Part shown: positions 12,897-22,167 of the stretch, in pieces | How the letters are laid out: the number at the start of each line of letters is the position of its first letter | Numbering within the stretch: the first letter of the stretch is position 1 | Source of the DNA: Candidatus Baltobacteraceae bacterium | GTDB taxonomy: Bacteria > Vulcanimicrobiota > Vulcanimicrobiia > Vulcanimicrobiales > Vulcanimicrobiaceae | Direction: 5' to 3' | Length of the DNA stretch: 64,000 bases | Assembly (NCBI GenBank): GCA_036488875.1 | Contig: DASXGW010000001.1 | Span: 434,001-498,000, forward strand | The notes under the pieces: model-generated | What the model was told of the DNA's origin: nothing | The model's input: only the letters and a program-made list of their open reading frames with translations | Database searches by the model: none | Position numbers and translations under genes: made by a program

Positions 12897-12923
12897 GTTT
12901 TGCATCCGCGTGACGGACGACTA

Positions 12924-12962
12924 AAAAAGCCCCGCGGAACGTTCTTATTCCACGGGGTTTTT
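12924..12962 (+). terminator. Intrinsic terminator, probably bidirectional
   Basis: Arms 12924-12939 and 12948-12962 form a CCCCG/CGGGG plus GGAA/TTCC stem flanked by A5 on the left and T5 on the right, with one mismatch and one bulge. It follows the lipoprotein gene by 28 nt. Because it is flanked by both an A and a T run, it can also serve transcripts coming leftward through the tRNA remnant. Confidence 0.85.
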
Positions 12963-12964
12963 AC

Positions 12965-13014
12965 AATGGTGGGCGGTATCAGGATTGAACTTATGACCTC
13001 TTCCGTGTCAAAGA
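12965..13014 (-). repeat. tRNA-Val(GAC) 3'-half remnant, candidate attachment site
   Basis: Fifty nucleotides match 22091-22140 with only two mismatches, in the same orientation 9126 bp away. The matched part of the intact tRNA runs from the anticodon loop through the variable region, T arm and acceptor 3' strand to the encoded CCA. Beyond 13014 the match stops and no 5' acceptor strand, D arm or paired anticodon stem is found, so this copy is not a working tRNA. A duplicated anticodon-loop-to-3'-end segment is the classic footprint of a tyrosine-recombinase island. A plain tRNA pseudogene is the alternative. Confidence 0.75.
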
Positions 13015-13569
13015 GATCGATCCACCAGGCAAGCTCCGCTTCCCTCGTGCACGAGAGTGTTTCACGTTGCAGGATCCGCACGCCGCGCGCGTGGTACGTG
13101 GTAGCTTAAGTGGTAGTTCCTTCTTATCTTCTGGCGGTGCGGCGGCTGTACTAAAGAGCCGGTCTCCGGGCCGGAAGGCCTCGAGCCCGTCCTGCGTTCC
13201 GAACCTCGGCTTTGGGGCAGATTTGCCGCCGCTAAACAAGGAAATCGATTCCGATTGCATCCGAGTCTACCCGAAAAATCTGGGTCAGCTTCGATCCGTC
13301 CTTACCCTTGAGTTACTTACATTCGAGAATATCGCGATCTGTTTGGCTGACTCGATGGACGGGGCGATTCTGGAATTTCCTAGCGAATCAGAGATAAGTC
13401 GCAATCTGGGTTTAGAATTAATAGTTCAGCCATGAACCCATCGCCTACACGCGCTTGCGCCTTCCGAGCGGGAATGGGCTTTTATACCGTGCGAAAACTC
13501 GGAAGTTCCTCATCAAACGTGCCGACGCCCCGATGGGGCGGCCGCTCGATTTACGGGCGTTGCTCCTAG
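13015..13569. other. Gene-poor stretch at the left edge of the putative island
   Basis: About 555 bp without a convincing gene. A plus-strand frame from TTG 13067 to 13435 is open, but its N-terminal half is Arg/Ser-rich shadow-like sequence and it lacks a ribosome site. The stretch near 13380-13430 is AT-rich compared with its surroundings. No integrase fragment was found by eye. Confidence 0.5.
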
Positions 13570-15387
13570 TTAGGGTGTCGCATACCCGGTGACGGTCGTG
13601 AGAAGCGTAGGATCGAAGTTGCCCGAGGGAAGCCGGACGCGCCACGTTCGGCTGGCCGTATCGGCTCCCGGAAGCAGCCGTCCTAAGTTCCCGATTGTGG
13701 CCGAAGAATACACGAACGTCGCGCCGATACCGGCTTTCTGATTGTCCGCGTTGAGCACCGCAATCGGCGGCTGCTTGGCTGTGAAGTTCGGGTTTTCGTC
13801 GTCGTACGGATTGTGCGTCAAGCTAACGGTAACCGTAAACGGTGGATACAGAACCGAATGCGAGGTGTTGTGCAGCCGCACCGGCACGGTAAACGCTTGC
13901 GATTTACCGTCCCAGGTTCCGACGCCAAACTCGAGCGCTATCGAGTCGGTGAGCTTGCGTTCGCTCAAGCCCGCCGGCACGGGGTCGGACGCGGTTGTAA
14001 AGGCCGTCGCCGTCCAAACCTGTCCCGTGCCGTTGCGCGCGTCGATCCAAATCGGGTGAAACCCGCCGCTCGCGTCGGCGGCGAGTCCCATGTAGTCGCC
14101 GAACGAGGCATAGCGGTTGAGCGGCGACGTGAATCCGACGAAGATCCCTTTCGTATCGGGAAACGCTTGCGCCGAATAGCCGTCACCATTCGGCGGACGG
14201 ATCGGCGACGACGTGCTCGAAACGCGTGCAAGCGTTGAAAACGATCGGCCGCCGTCGTGTGAAAGGGCGAACATCTCGGAAATCGTCTCGGACTCATGCG
14301 ATGCGTTGTACCAACTGATGCCCAGTGCACCCATGTTGTTGACCGCGAGTGACGGTTGATATTGCGAGTCCAGACGATCGGAAGTCGTCAGAATCTCCTG
14401 CGGCTGCGTCCAGTGCGTTCCCATGTCGTCGGAACGAGTGAACAACAGGCGCGACCGCGGCGTTCGCATGTCGCTCCAAACGCCATAGATTTCGGTGCCG
14501 CTAGTCGTCCGTGCCGAGGCAAACTGCGGAACGGAATCGACGTCAAACGTATAGTCACCGCTGTGCAGGCGCTGTTCCGTGGCCTTGAGTCCGTACACGA
14601 TGCGATCGCCGACGCGTCGCGGCGTGCCGAACGATCGACCGCCATCGCGCGAAAGACTTACGGCGACGACTTCGTGTGTATCCGTAAGCGATTTTACGTG
14701 AAAAAACGGAAACAGAAGATTTCCGCCGGGTAACACGACCGGACGGCTGTTGAACGACCATCCTCGCCAAACTTCCACCGGACGGTGAAACGTGCGGCCG
14801 CCGTCGCTCGACCAGATGAGTCCCAATGCATTGACTTGCGGCGAAAGACTCGCGGTATACAAAGCCGACATGTATATTCGGCCGCGATACGTACCATTCG
14901 TTTCGTCGATCGCGAGCTGCTCGTGGTCGTAGCTGTGCTTGTCGGGTGTTTGAAGAAATGCTAGGCGTTGGAAGGTCTCTCCGGCGTCGAGCGTGCCGAA
15001 GACGTAGAGACCGTTCAGCGTCTCTCCGGAGGAGTCGGCCTCGCTGCCGAGTATTGTCATATAACCTTTGCCGTCGGCACTAAAGGCCGCCTGAACGTCG
15101 CCTAAGAGGGAACCTGAGGCGAGCGGTAAGGTGGTGCCGCGCCAGTTGTATCCCCCGTCGTCCGACCTAAACGTTTCTGCCGTCAAGCCGCCGACGCCGA
15201 AGACCATCGAACCGGCGATGAGCTTGCGTGCATCCTTCGGCGACACCGCGATCGCCGGTTCGACGTACCACGACGACGGATGTCCGTCGACGACCGAGTC
15301 GGGTCCATACGACGGCTGGGAACTGCCGATGGTACTCGCGCAGAGCGAAACCGTGAGAAAAAGCGTGACCGCGCGTAGTGTCTTCAC
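13570..15387 (-). CDS. Secreted Asp-box (sialidase-fold) beta-propeller protein
   Basis: 605 aa from GTG 15387, which lies 1 nt after the TonB receptor stop codon; the longer frame back to 15501 is inside the receptor. Signal peptide: V-K-T-L-R-A-V-T-L-F, cleavage near residue 20. Five Asp-box-type motifs are visible (SDDGGYNW, SSDGGRTF, SRDGGRSF, SDDMGTHW, SHDGGRSF), the beta-hairpin turns of sialidase/BNR propellers. A C-terminal beta domain of about 120 residues follows. Catalytic sialidase residues could not be confirmed, so it may bind or cleave glycans or be structural. Same transcript as the receptor, suggesting a shared surface substrate. Confidence 0.85.
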   Translation of the reverse strand: MKTLRAVTLFLTVSLCASTIGSSQPSYGPDSVVDGHPSSWYVEPAIAVSPKDARKLIAGSMVFGVGGLTAETFRSDDGGYNWRGTTLPLASGSLLGDVQAAFSADGKGYMTILGSEADSSGETLNGLYVFGTLDAGETFQRLAFLQTPDKHSYDHEQLAIDETNGTYRGRIYMSALYTASLSPQVNALGLIWSSDGGRTFHRPVEVWRGWSFNSRPVVLPGGNLLFPFFHVKSLTDTHEVVAVSLSRDGGRSFGTPRRVGDRIVYGLKATEQRLHSGDYTFDVDSVPQFASARTTSGTEIYGVWSDMRTPRSRLLFTRSDDMGTHWTQPQEILTTSDRLDSQYQPSLAVNNMGALGISWYNASHESETISEMFALSHDGGRSFSTLARVSSTSSPIRPPNGDGYSAQAFPDTKGIFVGFTSPLNRYASFGDYMGLAADASGGFHPIWIDARNGTGQVWTATAFTTASDPVPAGLSERKLTDSIALEFGVGTWDGKSQAFTVPVRLHNTSHSVLYPPFTVTVSLTHNPYDDENPNFTAKQPPIAVLNADNQKAGIGATFVYSSATIGNLGRLLPGADTASRTWRVRLPSGNFDPTLLTTVTGYATP

Positions 15388-15388
15388 G

Positions 15389-18154
15389 TTAGTACTTGAA
15401 GTTTGCGGTAACGGTGATATAGCGCGGCCCGTACGGTTGAATGACGGCGACTCCGGGATAGTATCCCGTCGAACCTTGAACCACCGGCGTGACGTATCCA
15501 TAGTTTCCGAAGTTTTGGATACTTTGGTCGTAGGCCCCCGTGATGTTATTAAAGTTCACGAGCAGAGCGATGTTGTCGGTGAATGAGTACCCGGCGTGTG
15601 CATCGAGCACGACGAAGGCGTGTGGAATATTGTAGATGTTGTTGTTGCCGTAATAGGTGGGAGACAGATCGACGAACCTGCCCGGTTTCCAGCGCCAGCC
15701 AAGCGTCGCCGACGCGCCGGAATACGGCACCGTTGCGGAGTACGTGTTGCTGATGAAGTTCGCACCCGGAACCACGGATTGATTCGTGCACGCCTTCGTC
15801 GCCGCGCACGTGCCGTTATTGTAAAAGCCCGGGGGTACGCTCATCACGTAAGCGTGCGTCAATCCGAGCGTCGCGCGCCAATAATACCCGGACGGCACGT
15901 CGCGATTGACAGTGAGGTTGAGTCCTTCCATGCGACTCGTTCCCAGGTTCCCGTATTGGTTGATGAACAACGGCTGATTGTTGAGCGTCGACTGCGTGGT
16001 GCCGATGAAAAACTGACCGTAGAGATTCGTCCGATAGAGATCGATCGACGCGACGGTATTTCGTTCCAGGCGCGCGTCGGCGCCGACGTCGAACCCGAAC
16101 GTTTCCTCAGGTTTCAGATTGAGATTTGCCGTCGTTTCGGTGCATTCGCCGCCACTGCACTCTAGTGCGTAGCCCGTCAGATTCGGCAGCGCCGGCAGCG
16201 CAAAGCCGCCTCCGGCCGACGCTCGAATGGCCACGTTCGGACCGGCGCGCCACACGACGCCCAACCGCGGTGCGTTGTAGCGAAACACCGAGTCGCTCCA
16301 CTGAGATGGACTCGATGGCGTCGGAACGTGAAACGAGCCGATCGCAAAATACCACGAAAGTCCCACGGACAGTTTGTCGTTGATCTGCGAGTCGACGTGA
16401 AGGCGCGTCTCGTCCGTCGTCGACGATGCCGCGGTCGACTGGCTCAAGTTGACCAACGGCGTCTTATCGAGCGTTAGGCTCGCATTGTAGGGCGCGTTGT
16501 AGTACGACGTCGTATAGGAAAGGCCGGCGCTGGTCGAGATTCCTATCTGCGTCGCATAACTGAGCAGCAGGTCGCGGTTGTTCGTCCACCAGCTTTCTTG
16601 CGTGTTGAGGCTCGGAAACGTCACTTTTTCCAACGTGCCGTTGTACGCCGCAGGCGCGTACGACGAGGACGATCCGAGATCGGCAGTTCCCCAGAGGCGA
16701 TACGTCCCGTTGGGGTAGGCTTCGGCGCCGTTAAGGTTATTGAACGAGTTGTATTGTAGTGCCGCCACGCGCAGCACGGCGCCGTTGACGAAAGCCGTCA
16801 CTTTCTCTTCGAGGAGACTGCTGGATTGACTCACGACCTCCGGCGCGCTCTCCTGCGTGAGGAACGTATACGACGGCTGACCCACCGGACTCGGCGCGTA
16901 GCTTCCATGGTATCCGGTTCCCGGCGCGAACTCGACCGGGAAATAGCCTTGTTCGGAATACTGTCTTGACGTCGTGCCGGCATAGAATACTTCCGCCGTT
17001 ATCGACCGTGCGACGTCGTACGAAAGCGCGAGGGCGCCGTTTTGCTGCGACCATGCCGTGGACTGCTGCACGCCTTGCATCAACAGCGAGCTCGTGACGG
17101 TACAGAAGCAGTTCGGCACGCCGTTGACGGTAGGGTTTTGGTTGGCGGGTGGCAATGCGACCGGCTTTCCGTCGATCGTTGCCAGCGCAAACGGTAATGC
17201 CGGGATGACCGCGCTGCTGCCCAACGGCCCGGGGCTGTCGTTGATGCCGTAGACGATCGTTGCAGAAAGCTTGCCGAAGTGGAAGCCGGCGCGGCTGTTC
17301 GAAATGATGCCGCCGTACGGATCGTTACTTACCGAGAGCTCGAAACGGTTTGTGGTGACTTGTCCGGGCGGATGGAGTACGAAGCTTCCGCCAATTGAAT
17401 CCACGATGGACGGCGCATTAGCGCCGGGACCGCGCACGACGTCGGCCGTATCGAACGCGTCCATCGGCAAGTTGCTGAGGTCGAGGCCGCCGCCCGTATT
17501 TTCGATGAATCCGTTGCTCGATACACCCTGCAGCGGCATGCCGTCGAGCGTAGTCGACGTTTCGTACGGAAGCGCGCCGTTGAGCGAAAGAACGACCGGC
17601 ATCTGAGGTGCCAGTCGCATCGTTCCGGCAAAGGCGCTTCCGCCCGCCGAGTAGCCCGACACGGCCACGCCCGGAATTTGTGCGAAGAGATTCGTCCACG
17701 TGCCGTAGCCTGAGAACGCGTAATCGCCCGGTGTAACCGACGCGATGCTCGACGAGCTCACGTTGATGTGCGCGCCGCTGCTTTGGGTCGAAACGCGCGC
17801 GATCGTTTTAATTGCCGAAGGCGGCTCGAACTGAATGGCAACGGTGATGTCGCCGTTAATCAGGACGTCTTGTCGCGTTGCAGTTCCCAGCGCCGACGTC
17901 ACGACGATGCGGTATGTGCCCCACGGAACGTTGTTGAACGTAAAAATGCCGCGGTCGTTGCTGCTGGTCGAGAGTACGGTCGGTCCGCCGATTCGTACCT
18001 CGGCGCCGGGCACCGGCTTGCCGTCGCTTCGCGTTACGCTCCCCGTGACGTTCGCCGTATGCGCGGCTGACTGCTGGACGCCGGGCGATACTTGGGCCAG
18101 CACCACGCGCGTGCACAACAGAAACGCGACGGCGAGGGCGATCGTATTTCTCAT
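15389..18154 (-). CDS. TonB-dependent receptor with N-terminal carboxypeptidase-regulatory domain
   Basis: 921 aa. Signal peptide (cleavage near residue 20, V-L-A-Q); carboxypeptidase-regulatory-like beta sandwich at about 35-115 (V-T-G-S-V-T-R-S-D-G-K-P-V-P-G-A-E-V); plug domain about 130-285 with L-D-G-M-P-L and D-V-V-R-G-P-G-A-N-A; then a 22-strand-type barrel ending in the aromatic Y-I-T-V-T-A-N-F-K-Y. It imports a large or scarce ligand across the outer membrane using TonB energy. The regulatory domain at the front is typical of oligosaccharide and peptide receptors (SusC-like and Oar-like). ATG 18154 overlaps the amidotransferase stop by 4 nt, and the Asp-box gene follows at once, so the three are coupled. 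Confidence 0.93.
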   Translation of the reverse strand: MRNTIALAVAFLLCTRVVLAQVSPGVQQSAAHTANVTGSVTRSDGKPVPGAEVRIGGPTVLSTSSNDRGIFTFNNVPWGTYRIVVTSALGTATRQDVLINGDITVAIQFEPPSAIKTIARVSTQSSGAHINVSSSSIASVTPGDYAFSGYGTWTNLFAQIPGVAVSGYSAGGSAFAGTMRLAPQMPVVLSLNGALPYETSTTLDGMPLQGVSSNGFIENTGGGLDLSNLPMDAFDTADVVRGPGANAPSIVDSIGGSFVLHPPGQVTTNRFELSVSNDPYGGIISNSRAGFHFGKLSATIVYGINDSPGPLGSSAVIPALPFALATIDGKPVALPPANQNPTVNGVPNCFCTVTSSLLMQGVQQSTAWSQQNGALALSYDVARSITAEVFYAGTTSRQYSEQGYFPVEFAPGTGYHGSYAPSPVGQPSYTFLTQESAPEVVSQSSSLLEEKVTAFVNGAVLRVAALQYNSFNNLNGAEAYPNGTYRLWGTADLGSSSSYAPAAYNGTLEKVTFPSLNTQESWWTNNRDLLLSYATQIGISTSAGLSYTTSYYNAPYNASLTLDKTPLVNLSQSTAASSTTDETRLHVDSQINDKLSVGLSWYFAIGSFHVPTPSSPSQWSDSVFRYNAPRLGVVWRAGPNVAIRASAGGGFALPALPNLTGYALECSGGECTETTANLNLKPEETFGFDVGADARLERNTVASIDLYRTNLYGQFFIGTTQSTLNNQPLFINQYGNLGTSRMEGLNLTVNRDVPSGYYWRATLGLTHAYVMSVPPGFYNNGTCAATKACTNQSVVPGANFISNTYSATVPYSGASATLGWRWKPGRFVDLSPTYYGNNNIYNIPHAFVVLDAHAGYSFTDNIALLVNFNNITGAYDQSIQNFGNYGYVTPVVQGSTGYYPGVAVIQPYGPRYITVTANFKY

Positions 18155-18888
18155 GATGACTCCAAAGCGGCGCTAACTAGCGAAGAATAGATTCGTTGCG
18201 AGGCAGGCGTATCCGGCAACGATTCGGGGTGCCACTGGACGCCTAAAAAATAAAAGTCTCGCACCTTGAGCTCGATGGCTTCGATCACGTCGTCGGGTGT
18301 CGCGCCGACGGCAGCGAGTGGCGGTGCGAGCGCGCGAATGGCTTGATGGTGCAGCGAGTTCGTCCAGATCGATGATTGACCGGTAACCTCGCGCAGCAGC
18401 GATTTTGGCTTTACGGCAACGCGGTGCGTCCCCACGGTGGCGGGCTCGTTGAGTTCGCGCACCTGATGATGCTTGATCTGGTATCGCGGGCCGAGTTCGG
18501 ACGCCAAATCTTCGATGAGCGTTCCGCCGAAGGCGATGTTCGCGAGTTGCATGCCTCGGCAAACGCATAGCGTCGGCTTTCGTTCGGCAAATACGCGCCA
18601 GAGTAACGCCATTTCGCCGGCATCGCGAACGGGATCCACGCGATTGTCGGCAAGATCCGATCGCCCGCCGTAAAGGCCGGGCGCGACGTCGCCTCCTCCG
18701 CTAAACAGTAAGCCGTCGAACTGCGTGCGATCTAACGCCGACGCGGTGGCTTTGCCGCGCGGTAGAATCACCGCGTTTGCTCCGGCCGATTCGAGCAGTC
18801 TCTTGTGCCTGGCAACCTCATATTGAGCAAGATCCTCCTCGTCGATCGACTCCAATGGACTAGTGATGCCGATGGTAGGCCGACCCAT
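18151..18888 (-). CDS. Class I glutamine amidotransferase-like peptidase (C26, PuuD-like)
   Basis: 245 aa. The gamma-glutamyl hydrolase fold is shown by the start R-P-T-I-G-I-T, the oxyanion loop F-S-G-G-G-D-V, the nucleophile elbow C-V-C-R-G-M-Q (Cys 110), and the His-Glu pair in GVQWHPES (His 220, Glu 222). Relatives cleave gamma-glutamyl amides such as gamma-glutamyl-GABA in putrescine breakdown. No signal peptide is present, so it acts in the cytoplasm. It lies between a LuxR regulator and a TonB receptor and overlaps the receptor gene by 4 nt. An imported gamma-glutamyl compound is therefore a reasonable guess for its substrate, not a demonstrated one. Confidence 0.9.
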   Translation of the reverse strand: MGRPTIGITSPLESIDEEDLAQYEVARHKRLLESAGANAVILPRGKATASALDRTQFDGLLFSGGGDVAPGLYGGRSDLADNRVDPVRDAGEMALLWRVFAERKPTLCVCRGMQLANIAFGGTLIEDLASELGPRYQIKHHQVRELNEPATVGTHRVAVKPKSLLREVTGQSSIWTNSLHHQAIRALAPPLAAVGATPDDVIEAIELKVRDFYFLGVQWHPESLPDTPASQRIYSSLVSAALESS

Positions 18889-18905
18889 ACGAGAAGCGTA
18901 GAAAA

Positions 18906-20618
18906 TCAGACTAGAGGTGTCATCCTGGAATCCCCAACCGAAAGCGAATCGGTGAGCTGGTGGCGCGAGCGAATTCCGAGCCGGTTCATGATCGACGTCA
19001 TATGCGATTCAACGGTGTGCTCGCTGATCGCGAGTTCGCGCGCGATCGCACGATTGGTGAGGCCTTTGAGAACGAGGTGCGCGACCTCTTCCTCGCGTCT
19101 CGTCAAAGTCGTCATATCCCCGAGCAACGTGCGGAAGGCGGATCGTTTCAACGACGATTTATCTTTCGTCGCGTGCGCGCGCCAGCCGATGGTGCCGAAG
19201 TCGCGCGCCGCTTTCGTTTGCTTGCCTTCGAACGCGAGAAGGTAAGCTGCGGCAACGCGGCCGTTCGGAAGCTTCGCGCGTGCCACGAGCAAGGTTCGCG
19301 CGCGCTTCCGATCGGCTTCCGTTCCGTATCGTGACGCATCCAAAAGTAAGTCCCACGCGTGATCTGCGTTAAGCAGTGAAGCGACGCCGCGGTGGAGTAA
19401 CGCTTTGGCTGCATCGTCTTCATCGCGCGCGAGATGCCAGCGGACGGTTGCGGAGAGCAGCGGCCCAATGCGACCCGGTTCTCCGGACTGCAGTGCGTAA
19501 TCGACGGCGCGCTCGTTGGTACAGCGTCGCCGCAGCCCCTCGTCGTCGAGGACGTAACTGAGCTTCAGACCAACGGTCGCGAGCAGCACGACGACGCAAG
19601 GCGTTGCAATGTCGAGTGCGAGTGCGTCGAGAAGCAGGTCTCGTGCGTGGTCGTATTGCTCGAGTTCTAAAAGCAGGTCGGCGTAACGAAGCGAGAGATA
19701 AGCCACGCGCCACGCGATGTGCCGGTCGCGCGCGACGAAGAGCGCCTGTTCGCGACAGAGCTGCCCGGTTGCAATGTCGCCGAGCGCAATCGCCCAACTG
19801 CCGTAGTCGTCCCAGATCGACGTGATCTGATAGCCGTCCGGCAGGGCTTTGGCTGCGGTGACGGCCTCTTCGAAATGCGCGTACGCCTCGGTTCGGCTGC
19901 CTTTTGCGGCGTACAAGATGGCGCGCTGCGTCAAGCTCACGGCACGCGTTTCGGGCAGATCGCTGCGGAGAACGTTTCCCGCGCGCTCGAAAAACGGTTC
20001 GGCCGCTTCATGCCGGCCGAGCAGAATCAGATAGTGCGCCATTGCAAGGTTCGCACGCTCGGAAAACGCGTGGCTGTTGGCCAGCGTCGCGAGTTGAATT
20101 GCCTCGCTAATGAGCGGCAACGCGGAGACTGTGTCGGCGTTAAGCCAATATTGACGCGATAACCGCAACAGTAACGTGCCGGCGGTTTCGGCATTCCGGG
20201 CAGTGACGCCGGCTGCGCGATAACCGTTGAGCGCGCGCTCGAACCATACGCGCGCGTTTTCCGGTTCGCGGCCGAAGAAGAGCGTGCCGGCGTACTTCTG
20301 TGAAAGACGAAGTTCGTCGTCAACGTGGATCGCCGCCGACTTGAGTGCTTCGTCGTAACGGAGGAGTGCTTCGGGGTAGTCATATCGCCCGCACGCGAAG
20401 TCGCCCGCGGATTCGTGAAACGCGAGTCTGCGTCGGTGCTCGACGGTCGCCGATTTCCGGAGGCGCGACGCGCGTACGCGAAGCTTGGCCGCATCGTTGC
20501 AAGCCTTGCAAACCGTCTGTCCGGCACGCGCCGGCGCTTTAAAGCAGACGATGCAGATGCCCCGCTCTCGTGCCACCTGTCTGCGCCTCACGAAGCGATT
20601 AGTGCCGTGCTGTAACAT
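18906..20618 (-). CDS. LuxR-type regulator with N-terminal zinc ribbon and TPR region
   Basis: 570 aa. Residues 22-40 hold C-x2-C-x11-C-x2-C (CIVCFKAPARAGQTVCKAC), a likely zinc ribbon, followed by a basic stretch. Residues about 65-480 are helical TPR-like repeats. The C-terminus (about 500-560) is a LuxR helix-turn-helix: L-T-R-R-E-E-E-V-A-H-L-V-L-K-G-L-T-N-R-A-I-A, S-E-H-T-V-E-S-H. This resembles the MalT-like/LAL layout without a nucleotide-binding STAND domain. It ends 17 nt before the amidotransferase gene on the same strand and is probably the local regulator. An inverted repeat covers its start codon. Confidence 0.88.
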   Translation of the reverse strand: MLQHGTNRFVRRRQVARERGICIVCFKAPARAGQTVCKACNDAAKLRVRASRLRKSATVEHRRRLAFHESAGDFACGRYDYPEALLRYDEALKSAAIHVDDELRLSQKYAGTLFFGREPENARVWFERALNGYRAAGVTARNAETAGTLLLRLSRQYWLNADTVSALPLISEAIQLATLANSHAFSERANLAMAHYLILLGRHEAAEPFFERAGNVLRSDLPETRAVSLTQRAILYAAKGSRTEAYAHFEEAVTAAKALPDGYQITSIWDDYGSWAIALGDIATGQLCREQALFVARDRHIAWRVAYLSLRYADLLLELEQYDHARDLLLDALALDIATPCVVVLLATVGLKLSYVLDDEGLRRRCTNERAVDYALQSGEPGRIGPLLSATVRWHLARDEDDAAKALLHRGVASLLNADHAWDLLLDASRYGTEADRKRARTLLVARAKLPNGRVAAAYLLAFEGKQTKAARDFGTIGWRAHATKDKSSLKRSAFRTLLGDMTTLTRREEEVAHLVLKGLTNRAIARELAISEHTVESHMTSIMNRLGIRSRHQLTDSLSVGDSRMTPLV

Positions 20619-20632
20619 TCCTCTGTGTTACA
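20611..20632. promoter_or_regulatory. Inverted repeat TGTAACA-N8-TGTTACA over the regulator start
   Basis: Perfect 7-bp arms at 20611-20617 and 20626-20632 with an 8-nt spacer. The left arm overlaps the ATG (20616-20618, minus strand) of the LuxR regulator gene. It could be an operator for autoregulation or an mRNA hairpin that limits translation. I cannot tell which from sequence. Confidence 0.55.
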
Positions 20633-20880
20633 GATACGCGGGCGAGCGCTCCAAGTCCCGCATTATTACGCTGCGTCGTGACGGCGCTGAATGGACGTGG
20701 GCGCAAAGTCCCGCTGGGGACACCGGTCACTAAGCCTAGTCGCGCCGAGCGGCGCCGTGGATCCGGCGGCTTGGGTCGAGATAACTCCAGCGATCGCGGC
20801 GTGGGTGCCAAGATGGAACTGAGCCGTTGCAGTCTAAACCAAAACTGGCCGAGTTTGATAGAAAAAGTTTGCTCTCCACA

Positions 20881-21724
20881 ATGCGGGAAGCAAAACATTT
20901 CTTCAAGGAGACCTACGCAAATAATCTTTCAATGACTCTACAGCGGCTCGTCAAGAGTGCGAAGTTACGGTCCCTGGGGAGCGAGCGATATGCCCTGTCT
21001 CACGACACAATCCAGGAGTTAAACGAAGCGCGTTGCTTAAGGACATTGATCTCAAGAACGTCATTCACGCGAAGGGCCTTTCCCAGACTGATGCCCTACT
21101 GCTAATATTCGCTGCAGACGACCCCGGTCCGAAGAAGGTAGACGTATCATTACACTTGGGATCTCGGCAGGTCAACGCAAGATACGGAAGTGGAATATCT
21201 CGGCGCGACTCGCGGCGTCCGCCGGCCGTGAGTACGTAGCGAAAAAGCCTGGGATAAGTTTCGGCGCTTCGCCAATGAAGAAGACCGCATTGAATCTCGG
21301 AAAACACGTCGCAAAAATCGGGGACCCGCAGAGCCGAGAATTCCTCGAAGAAGCGATAGACAGCCTCGATCATGGACAGAGACGAGCGGCTGTAGTGCTG
21401 TCGTGGGTTGGCGCTGTCGCTCTCATACAGGATTACGTTGTGGCTAACCACCTAGTAGATTTCAATGCCGAGGCGACAAAGCGCAACCTTAAATGGAAGG
21501 CGGCGATAACGGCCGATGACATTTCGTCGCGCATGGATGAGTACGACTTCTTGCAGATTTGTGCGGCGATTTCCGTTTTGAGCAAGAGCGTTAAAAACCG
21601 ACTTGAGCAGGCGCTAAAGTTGCGAAACGGAGCCGGTCATCCGAATCGGCTAGCCGTTGGAGAGTTTGAGGCCGCTGCGCACGTCGAATCACTCGTCAAG
21701 AACGTGTTTGAGAAGTTTGCCTAG
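20881..21724 (+). pseudogene. Winged-helix-like plus HEPN-domain protein, two frameshifts
   Basis: Three consecutive plus-strand frames give one coherent protein of about 280 residues. ATG 20881 (or TTG 20827) opens a helical part with a DNA-binding-like L-R-S-L-G-S-E-R-Y-A-L-S. The frame slips near 21032 into L-L-K-D-I-D-L-K-N and L-S-Q-T-D-A-L-L-L-I-F-A-A-D-D. It slips again near 21150 into I-T-L-G-I-S-A-G-Q-R-K-I-R-K-W-N-I-S. The last part (150 aa from ATG 21275) has R-N-G-A-G-H-P, the Rx4-6H motif of HEPN domains. Each slip equals one missing base. Base composition is visibly more AT-rich than the flanks, as expected for mobile or defence DNA. It is either a broken gene or a consensus error. 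Confidence 0.65.
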
Positions 21725-21957
21725 TTAGGCTCATCGTCGCTAGTCGCGACCTGTTGCCAACGCCCGTCGGGTGTGTAGAACACGCGCTTGCCGCCGATAG
21801 TGGCTTCAAGGCTTGGGTCGTGGTCGAGATATTCTAGTAGGTGCTTGGCGAACCAGCGTTCCTCGCCAAGATCCTTGAAGAAGATGTTCTCCGCGTAATC
21901 TTCGTAGAGCTCCCCAATTACGGATGCGCCGCTAGAGACGGAGTGGTAAAAGCCCAC
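21721..21957 (-). CDS. Hypothetical protein (78 aa)
   Basis: Starts at 21957 and converges on the HEPN gene with a 4-nt overlap. It is acidic, with E-L-Y-E-D-Y-A-E-N-I-F-F-K-D-L-G, H-L-L-E-Y-L-D-H-D-P and a short beta-like T-I-G-G-K-R-V-F-Y-T-P-D-G-R-W. No family is recognised. Composition is protein-like and similar in base content to the neighbouring HEPN gene, so both may belong to the same transferred segment. Confidence 0.5.
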   Translation of the reverse strand: MGFYHSVSSGASVIGELYEDYAENIFFKDLGEERWFAKHLLEYLDHDPSLEATIGGKRVFYTPDGRWQQVATSDDEPN

Positions 21958-22047
21958 ACTTCGCCGATCTTGTGGGCGAATCCGAGTCGTTCAGTTTCCG
22001 GCGATACCCTAATACGGACAAGTTGCATCGGTAATCCGTGTTTCGAT

Positions 22048-22085
22048 AAAAAAGAAGAAAAAGAACCCCGATCCGTTCGGAGTTC
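22048..22085 (-). terminator. Intrinsic terminator of tRNA-Val(GAC)
   Basis: On the minus strand, a stem between 22077-22085 and 22063-22071 (one mismatch, 5-nt loop) is followed by a pyrimidine run rich in T at 22062-22048. It begins 8 nt after the tRNA 3' end. Confidence 0.75.
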
Positions 22086-22092
22086 TCTAAAA

Positions 22093-22167
22093 TGGTGGGC
22101 GGTATAAGGATTGAACTTATGACCTCTTCCGTGTCAAGGAAGCGCTCTCCCACTGAGCTAACCGCCC
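22093..22167 (-). tRNA. tRNA-Val (GAC), CCA encoded
   Basis: Folds as a full cloverleaf. Acceptor GGGCGGT pairs with ACCGCCC, followed by discriminator A and encoded CCA. The D arm contains GCTCAGTGGGAGAGC, the anticodon stem is CTTCC/GGAAG with loop TTGACAC (anticodon GAC), and the T loop is TTCAATC. Its 3' half is repeated at 12965-13014, making it the likely integration target of the segment to its left. Confidence 0.96.

Follow-up and report, generated by a model that had tools for sequence, protein, structure and literature searches.

Why does a 3' piece of tRNA-Val(GAC) lie, with no 5' half attached, some 9 kb from the intact gene? We addressed this question in a window of 64 kb from a soil bacterium of Candidatus Eremiobacterota (contig C1 of genome G000, positions 434001-498000), which is the whole stretch of DNA that was analysed; coordinates below refer to this window.

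The tRNA-Val(GAC) gene and its displaced fragment

Realignment confirmed the direct repeat reported in the first-pass annotation: 50 nt at 12965-13014 recur at 22091-22140, in the same orientation and with exactly two mismatches. The repeat finder extended this core to 53 nt at 94% identity (12962-13014 and 22088-22140), by far the longest direct repeat within 12.5-22.6 kb (the runner-up was 23 nt at 83%). Three features define the ends of the segment:

12962-13014, minus strand, distal copy of the core repeat, a displaced tRNA-Val fragment with the 3' 48 nt and no 5' half (repeat finder and sequence comparison)
22088-22140, minus strand, proximal copy of the core repeat, 53 nt (repeat finder)
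22093-22167, minus strand, intact tRNA-Val(GAC), the putative restored target gene, whose 3' part is the proximal core copy (ARAGORN)

The core spans the tRNA from the anticodon stem/loop through CCA. ARAGORN found no tRNA at 12.97 kb and gave the tRNA-Val(GAC) at 22093-22167 as the one intact gene; upstream of the left copy, 7 of 27 positions matched the 5' half of the tRNA, which is chance level. The earlier description of an intact tRNA and a left copy devoid of its 5' half was therefore correct. Over its 48 nt, the fragment departs from the tRNA at two positions, including one in the T stem, which would be consistent with a fragment freed from selection. A whole-genome comparison with a 341-nt stretch holding the tRNA revealed no second GAC gene and no third core copy, the remaining matches being weaker (72-81% identity). 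Judged from sequence, the geometry of the segment is that of a tRNA-targeted island. The first-pass annotation had named two contrary cases, relatives with the receptor operon in place and no tRNA remnant, and a second tRNA-Val at 12.97 kb that is intact in relatives; neither was seen.

The same tRNA gene in related genomes

The locus was compared with metagenome-derived assemblies of Candidatus Eremiobacterota. Gene order on the 5' side of tRNA-Val(GAC) was widely conserved (TPR protein, thioesterase, tRNA-Val CAC, tRNA-Asp and tRNA-Phe), and the 3' side was different in every genome checked. Displaced tRNA 3' pieces were present in G074 (two, in tandem), G075, G076, G098 (two), G115 and G120, which belong to three other genera of the same family. 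G075 carries a complete element of 23.6 kb. An intact tRNA lies at one end and a core with 48 identical nt at the distal end, and the gene for its tyrosine integrase (407 aa) begins 139 bp from the tRNA. An integrase 84-85% identical to that of G075 occupies the same position at tRNA-Val in G061, and integrase genes or fragments adjoin a distal piece in G098 and G115. G074 (L072:11914-19772) holds two units in tandem (4.4 and 3.4 kb), neither with an integrase, which have only end sequences in common. Because integrase-bearing or remnant elements occupy the site in other genomes of the family, tRNA-Val(GAC) looks like an integration hotspot for tyrosine integrases. G062, whose head had suggested a further element, was rejected, as a search of the 41 kb to the 3' side revealed no distal core.

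In G001, the only genome of the same genus, the tRNA is uninterrupted, and both the terminator and the genes after it differ from those of the window. The metallo-hydrolase-like neighbour of the G001 tRNA-Val was sought in the genome of the window and not found, and the G001 ortholog of the spermidine-synthase-like gene in the left flank lies away from tRNA-Val. Across 99 family genomes, only the core and the terminator of the left flank were found beside tRNA-Val. No relative had the same left-flank genes adjoining an uninterrupted tRNA-Val, and these genes showed no similarity to the downstream DNA of G071, G072 and G074. The confirmation proposed in the first-pass annotation, namely relatives with an uninterrupted tRNA-Val followed directly by the flank at 12.9 kb, was obtained for the terminator (G071, G072 and G074) but not for the flanking genes.

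Terminators at both ends of the segment

A terminator-like hairpin lies at each end, and the two are unlike:

12922-12962, minus strand, hairpin directly 3' of the distal tRNA fragment and, within the window, the closest counterpart of the terminator after the intact tRNA-Val in G071, G072 and G074
22047-22089, minus strand, hairpin 3' of the intact tRNA (from the sequence)

The 55 nt beyond the left fragment were the best match in the window to the sequence that follows the intact tRNA-Val in these three genomes, with alignment scores of 48 (G071), 33 (G072) and 25 (G074), each the top score in the window. The left terminator fits a displaced tRNA 3' end, whether or not the flank is native. 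We rejected it as proof of a native flank, because the same type sits at the heads of the inserted units of G074 and is absent from G001, where tRNA-Val is followed by a different terminator. If integration is right, the hairpin at 22047-22089 arrived with the element.

Arm-like repeat pairs close to the core

Elements at the same tRNA carry arm-like marks, namely two direct repeats of ~10 bp with a spacing of 11-12 near each end. Relative to the tRNA, those in the heads lie at about +66 to +84; relative to the distal core, those in the tails lie at about -70 to -150. Such positions suit the arm sites of tyrosine integrases. The repeats were as follows:

G075 and G061, TGACCACTTA
G076, CCACAGCCTA
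G074, GGTAGCAACG
G098, TGACCACCAC
G115, AGGTCAACT

The two units of G074 have such repeats at both ends, paired except for one single-copy head. A pair score of 9/10 was reached by five of the eight remnants outside the window, the background being 2.4% per 158 nt. This gives P about 5e-7 assuming independence, which does not hold for related genomes; moreover, the pairs were first recognised while scanning a handful of elements and tested afterwards, so that the P values are post hoc. Of all the intact tRNA-Val loci compared, a proximal pair was found only in G061, G074, G075 and G076, each of which also shows an integrase or a remnant.

The segment has one such pair, at its distal end:

13095-13116, minus strand, paired direct repeat CTACCACTTA-AG-CTACCACGTA, proposed integrase arm site, 81-102 nt inside the distal core (repeat scan and comparison with G075 and G061)

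This pair, which the automated repeat scan had listed before the comparison with G075, scored 9/10, as do 1.2% of 90-nt stretches. It was the sole placement among 255,904 in the 64 kb to reach 15/20 when compared with the TGACCACTTA pair of G075 and G061, a matter of similarity and not identity. No arm pair was found at the tRNA-proximal end of the segment or in the left flank of the window. We propose that the pair at 13095-13116 is a putative integrase arm site.

Integrase and mobility genes

Pfam and NCBIfam searches found no integrase, transposase or conjugation genes among the main ORFs of the island. A tblastn search of the island with the ORFs of the neighbouring elements found no integrase relics; the listed matches were to the tRNA region, to short chance-like stretches and to the LuxR helix-turn-helix. 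In the host genome, integrase-type genes were limited to a XerC/D-like gene and, on contig C14, a truncated integrase, and no suitable intact helper integrase was seen there. The truncated gene (G000:C14:8860-9213, L066) is of the phage type, with a 157-aa frame. There was no sign of a phage origin of the segment, as viral contigs yielded no copy of the core, and relatives of the G075 integrase in these contigs reached only 24-28%.

The cargo operon

The operon consists of four genes:

18906-20618, minus strand, LuxR-type regulator with TPR repeats, the first gene of the operon (Pfam GerE 1.5e-17, TPR_12 6e-9; 52% match in G106)
18151-18888, minus strand, peptidase C26 / gamma-glutamyl hydrolase-like protein (Pfam Peptidase_C26 2.9e-52; 55% match in G106)
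15389-18154, minus strand, TonB-dependent receptor with a CarboxypepD_reg domain (Pfam TonB_dep_Rec_b-barrel 1.7e-21, Plug 3e-6; 56% match in G106)
13570-15501, minus strand, BNR-repeat (sialidase-like propeller) protein (Pfam BNR_2 3.8e-7, just under the curated cut-off; 43% match in G106)

All four are on the minus strand, overlap or nearly touch, and have frames that are still open. The true start of the BNR gene is probably further in, since the listed start overlaps the receptor gene. G106 has these four genes in the same order (43-56% identity); its tRNA-Val lies on a different contig. In 74 loci from relatives, almost all of which include tRNA-Val, the operon was not present at the tRNA gene; the cargo gave no matches there beyond a resemblance to the LuxR helix-turn-helix and a single HEPN piece, the latter on a different contig. 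With the TonB receptor as the query, no relatives were found in the genome contigs. The copy in G106 (C148:15001-25129, L125), the second of the whole cargo operon and in another genus, ends with its contig inside the last gene; G106 also contains several additional BNR paralogs.

The AT-richer tRNA-proximal stretch

Between the operon and the tRNA, G+C falls to 54% at 21-22 kb, versus about 60-62% around it. The stretch contains the following:

20827-21105, plus strand, fragment with weak AbiEi-like similarity (PADLOC E=0.002)
21275-21724, plus strand, HEPN-like ORF of 149 aa with an R-x4-H motif, the C-terminal part of a probably broken gene (homologs in G112, in a 253-aa frame, and in G087, 73% over 56 aa)
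21721-21957, minus strand, 78-aa ORF with no family, adjoining the tRNA-proximal end (ORF list)

The HEPN-like ORF had no Pfam match at the cut-off. A winged-helix-like sequence upstream of it looks, by eye, like its N-terminal domain and lies in a different frame; the HEPN gene is therefore probably broken, as had been noted earlier from the sequence.

Origin of the segment

Taken together, we consider it likely that the 9.1-kb segment is the decayed remainder of a tyrosine-integrase element at tRNA-Val(GAC), probably no longer mobile but still carrying the LuxR/C26/TonB-receptor/BNR operon. A site-specific tyrosine-recombinase element would have integrated into the 3' part of the tRNA gene, crossing over within the anticodon loop or on its 3' side. 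Recombination of the chromosomal tRNA with the tRNA 3' copy carried by the element would have given an intact tRNA at one end and displaced the former 3' half by 9 kb, and the distal end would have retained the core and an arm-like pair related to that of the G075 and G061 elements. Later deletion or decay would have removed a former integrase and the tRNA-proximal arm sites and broken the HEPN gene; the receptor operon would have remained open. Self-excision is probably no longer possible.

The strongest support for this reading comes from the integrase-bearing and remnant elements at the same tRNA in the family, together with a distal pair of the kind that adjoins an open integrase gene. The geometry, the same-site elements and the distal pair all favour the tRNA-integrated island put forward in the first-pass annotation. 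That annotation had left two options, an island that lost its integrase and one mobilised in trans; the former fits better and the latter worse, because the tRNA-proximal arm pair is missing as well.

The segment could also be a composite. Two elements would have accumulated one behind the other at tRNA-Val and lost their junction by deletion, so that the proximal and distal ends come from different elements; the sequence to the left of 12962 may itself be an older element's head. The ends of the segment mismatch each other, with an arm pair at the distal end only, and tandem arrays are known at this site (G074 and G098). In G071, G072 and G074, a sequence similar to the left terminator immediately follows tRNA-Val or its copies, which in G074 means the heads of inserted units; were the left flank native, the different terminator of G001 would be odd. 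However, a third core copy was seen neither in the window nor in the genome, the left flank has no arm pair, and its genes are unlike the downstream DNA of G071, G072 and G074. We regard a composite as unlikely.

A broader proposal, which we also rate as rather unlikely, is that tRNA-Val(GAC) of Eremiobacterota is frequently used for docking by a family of small elements, in which integrase-bearing elements and integrase-free cargo units have a common arm-site geometry. Cargo such as a whole receptor operon would then be moved by integrases encoded elsewhere, and the island would be such a unit minus one end.

In another alternative, an element that never had an integrase would have been moved in trans (or in cis by accretion) by the helper integrase of another tRNA-Val element. 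The integrase-free tandem units of G074 (4.4 and 3.4 kb), with arm-like repeats at both ends, show that integrase-free units exist at this site. The window, however, has no proximal arm pair, its HEPN gene is decayed, and the host genome, having no suitable intact integrase, offers no visible helper; we consider this origin improbable. That no site-specific integration took place, and that a partial duplication of the tRNA or a chromosomal rearrangement at it produced the fragment, is very improbable: in every relative gene order is disrupted at the 3' end of the tRNA, and many relatives have no fragment, but the copy boundaries fall at the anticodon loop as in other elements at tRNA-Val, a distal arm-like pair is present, and integrase-bearing elements occupy the identical site.

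Relation to known elements

The decayed-element reading places the segment close to several described types. It resembles the tDNA islands of Islander (PMC4383910) in its intact tRNA, the same-orientation 3' fragment on the 3' side, the anticodon-centred attachment subsite, and a length within range. Listing by Islander requires an integrase gene (PMC4383910), however, so the segment falls outside the strict definition and the published filter would reject it. Cis-mobilizable elements (CIMEs), for which the term and a decay route have been described (PMC5704250), likewise have no integration or transfer genes, have cores at both ends, and occur at a site with tandem elements; unlike them, the segment has an arm-like pair at the distal end only, and no mobilising partner was seen. 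The ssrA islands of Dehalococcoides, at a tmRNA hotspot, include tandem islands, some lacking an integration module, with metabolic cargo (PMC3146451). They are alike in all these respects, with an RNA gene as the hotspot, but use a serine recombinase at tmRNA, whereas the neighbours here use a tyrosine integrase at tRNA-Val.

The elements of G075 and G061 use the same tRNA and the same core (anticodon loop to CCA) and have a related distal arm-like pair. They differ in having an integrase and a proximal arm pair; both are missing from the segment, which is therefore not an intact member of this group. They have no cargo genes in common with the segment. Among titles and abstract openings, we found no literature treating genomic islands of Eremiobacterota. 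The segment is probably a known kind of element at an apparently undescribed hotspot.

These results point to an integration hotspot in a largely uncultured phylum. The paired repeats near the core provide a testable mark for integrase-free remnants that standard island finders discard, and the cargo suggests a route by which a nutrient-uptake operon can travel on such elements in soil bacteria.

Other variants of the tRNA-Val(GAC) locus

A tRNA-Val(GAC) with no encoded CCA was observed in G104 (L104), G106 (L106), G109 (L108), G110 (L084 and L085) and G074 (L072:19773-19847). In G104, G106 and G109, this CCA-less gene is followed by a conserved stretch starting AAGTTGT; in G109, the sequence after the tRNA exists in alternative forms on two contigs. 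G072 (L069) has a decayed piece of the tRNA T arm and acceptor end, CACGTTCAATCCATGTGCCGCCCGCCA, some 185 nt beyond tRNA-Val on its 3' side; this suggests an almost wholly deleted element.
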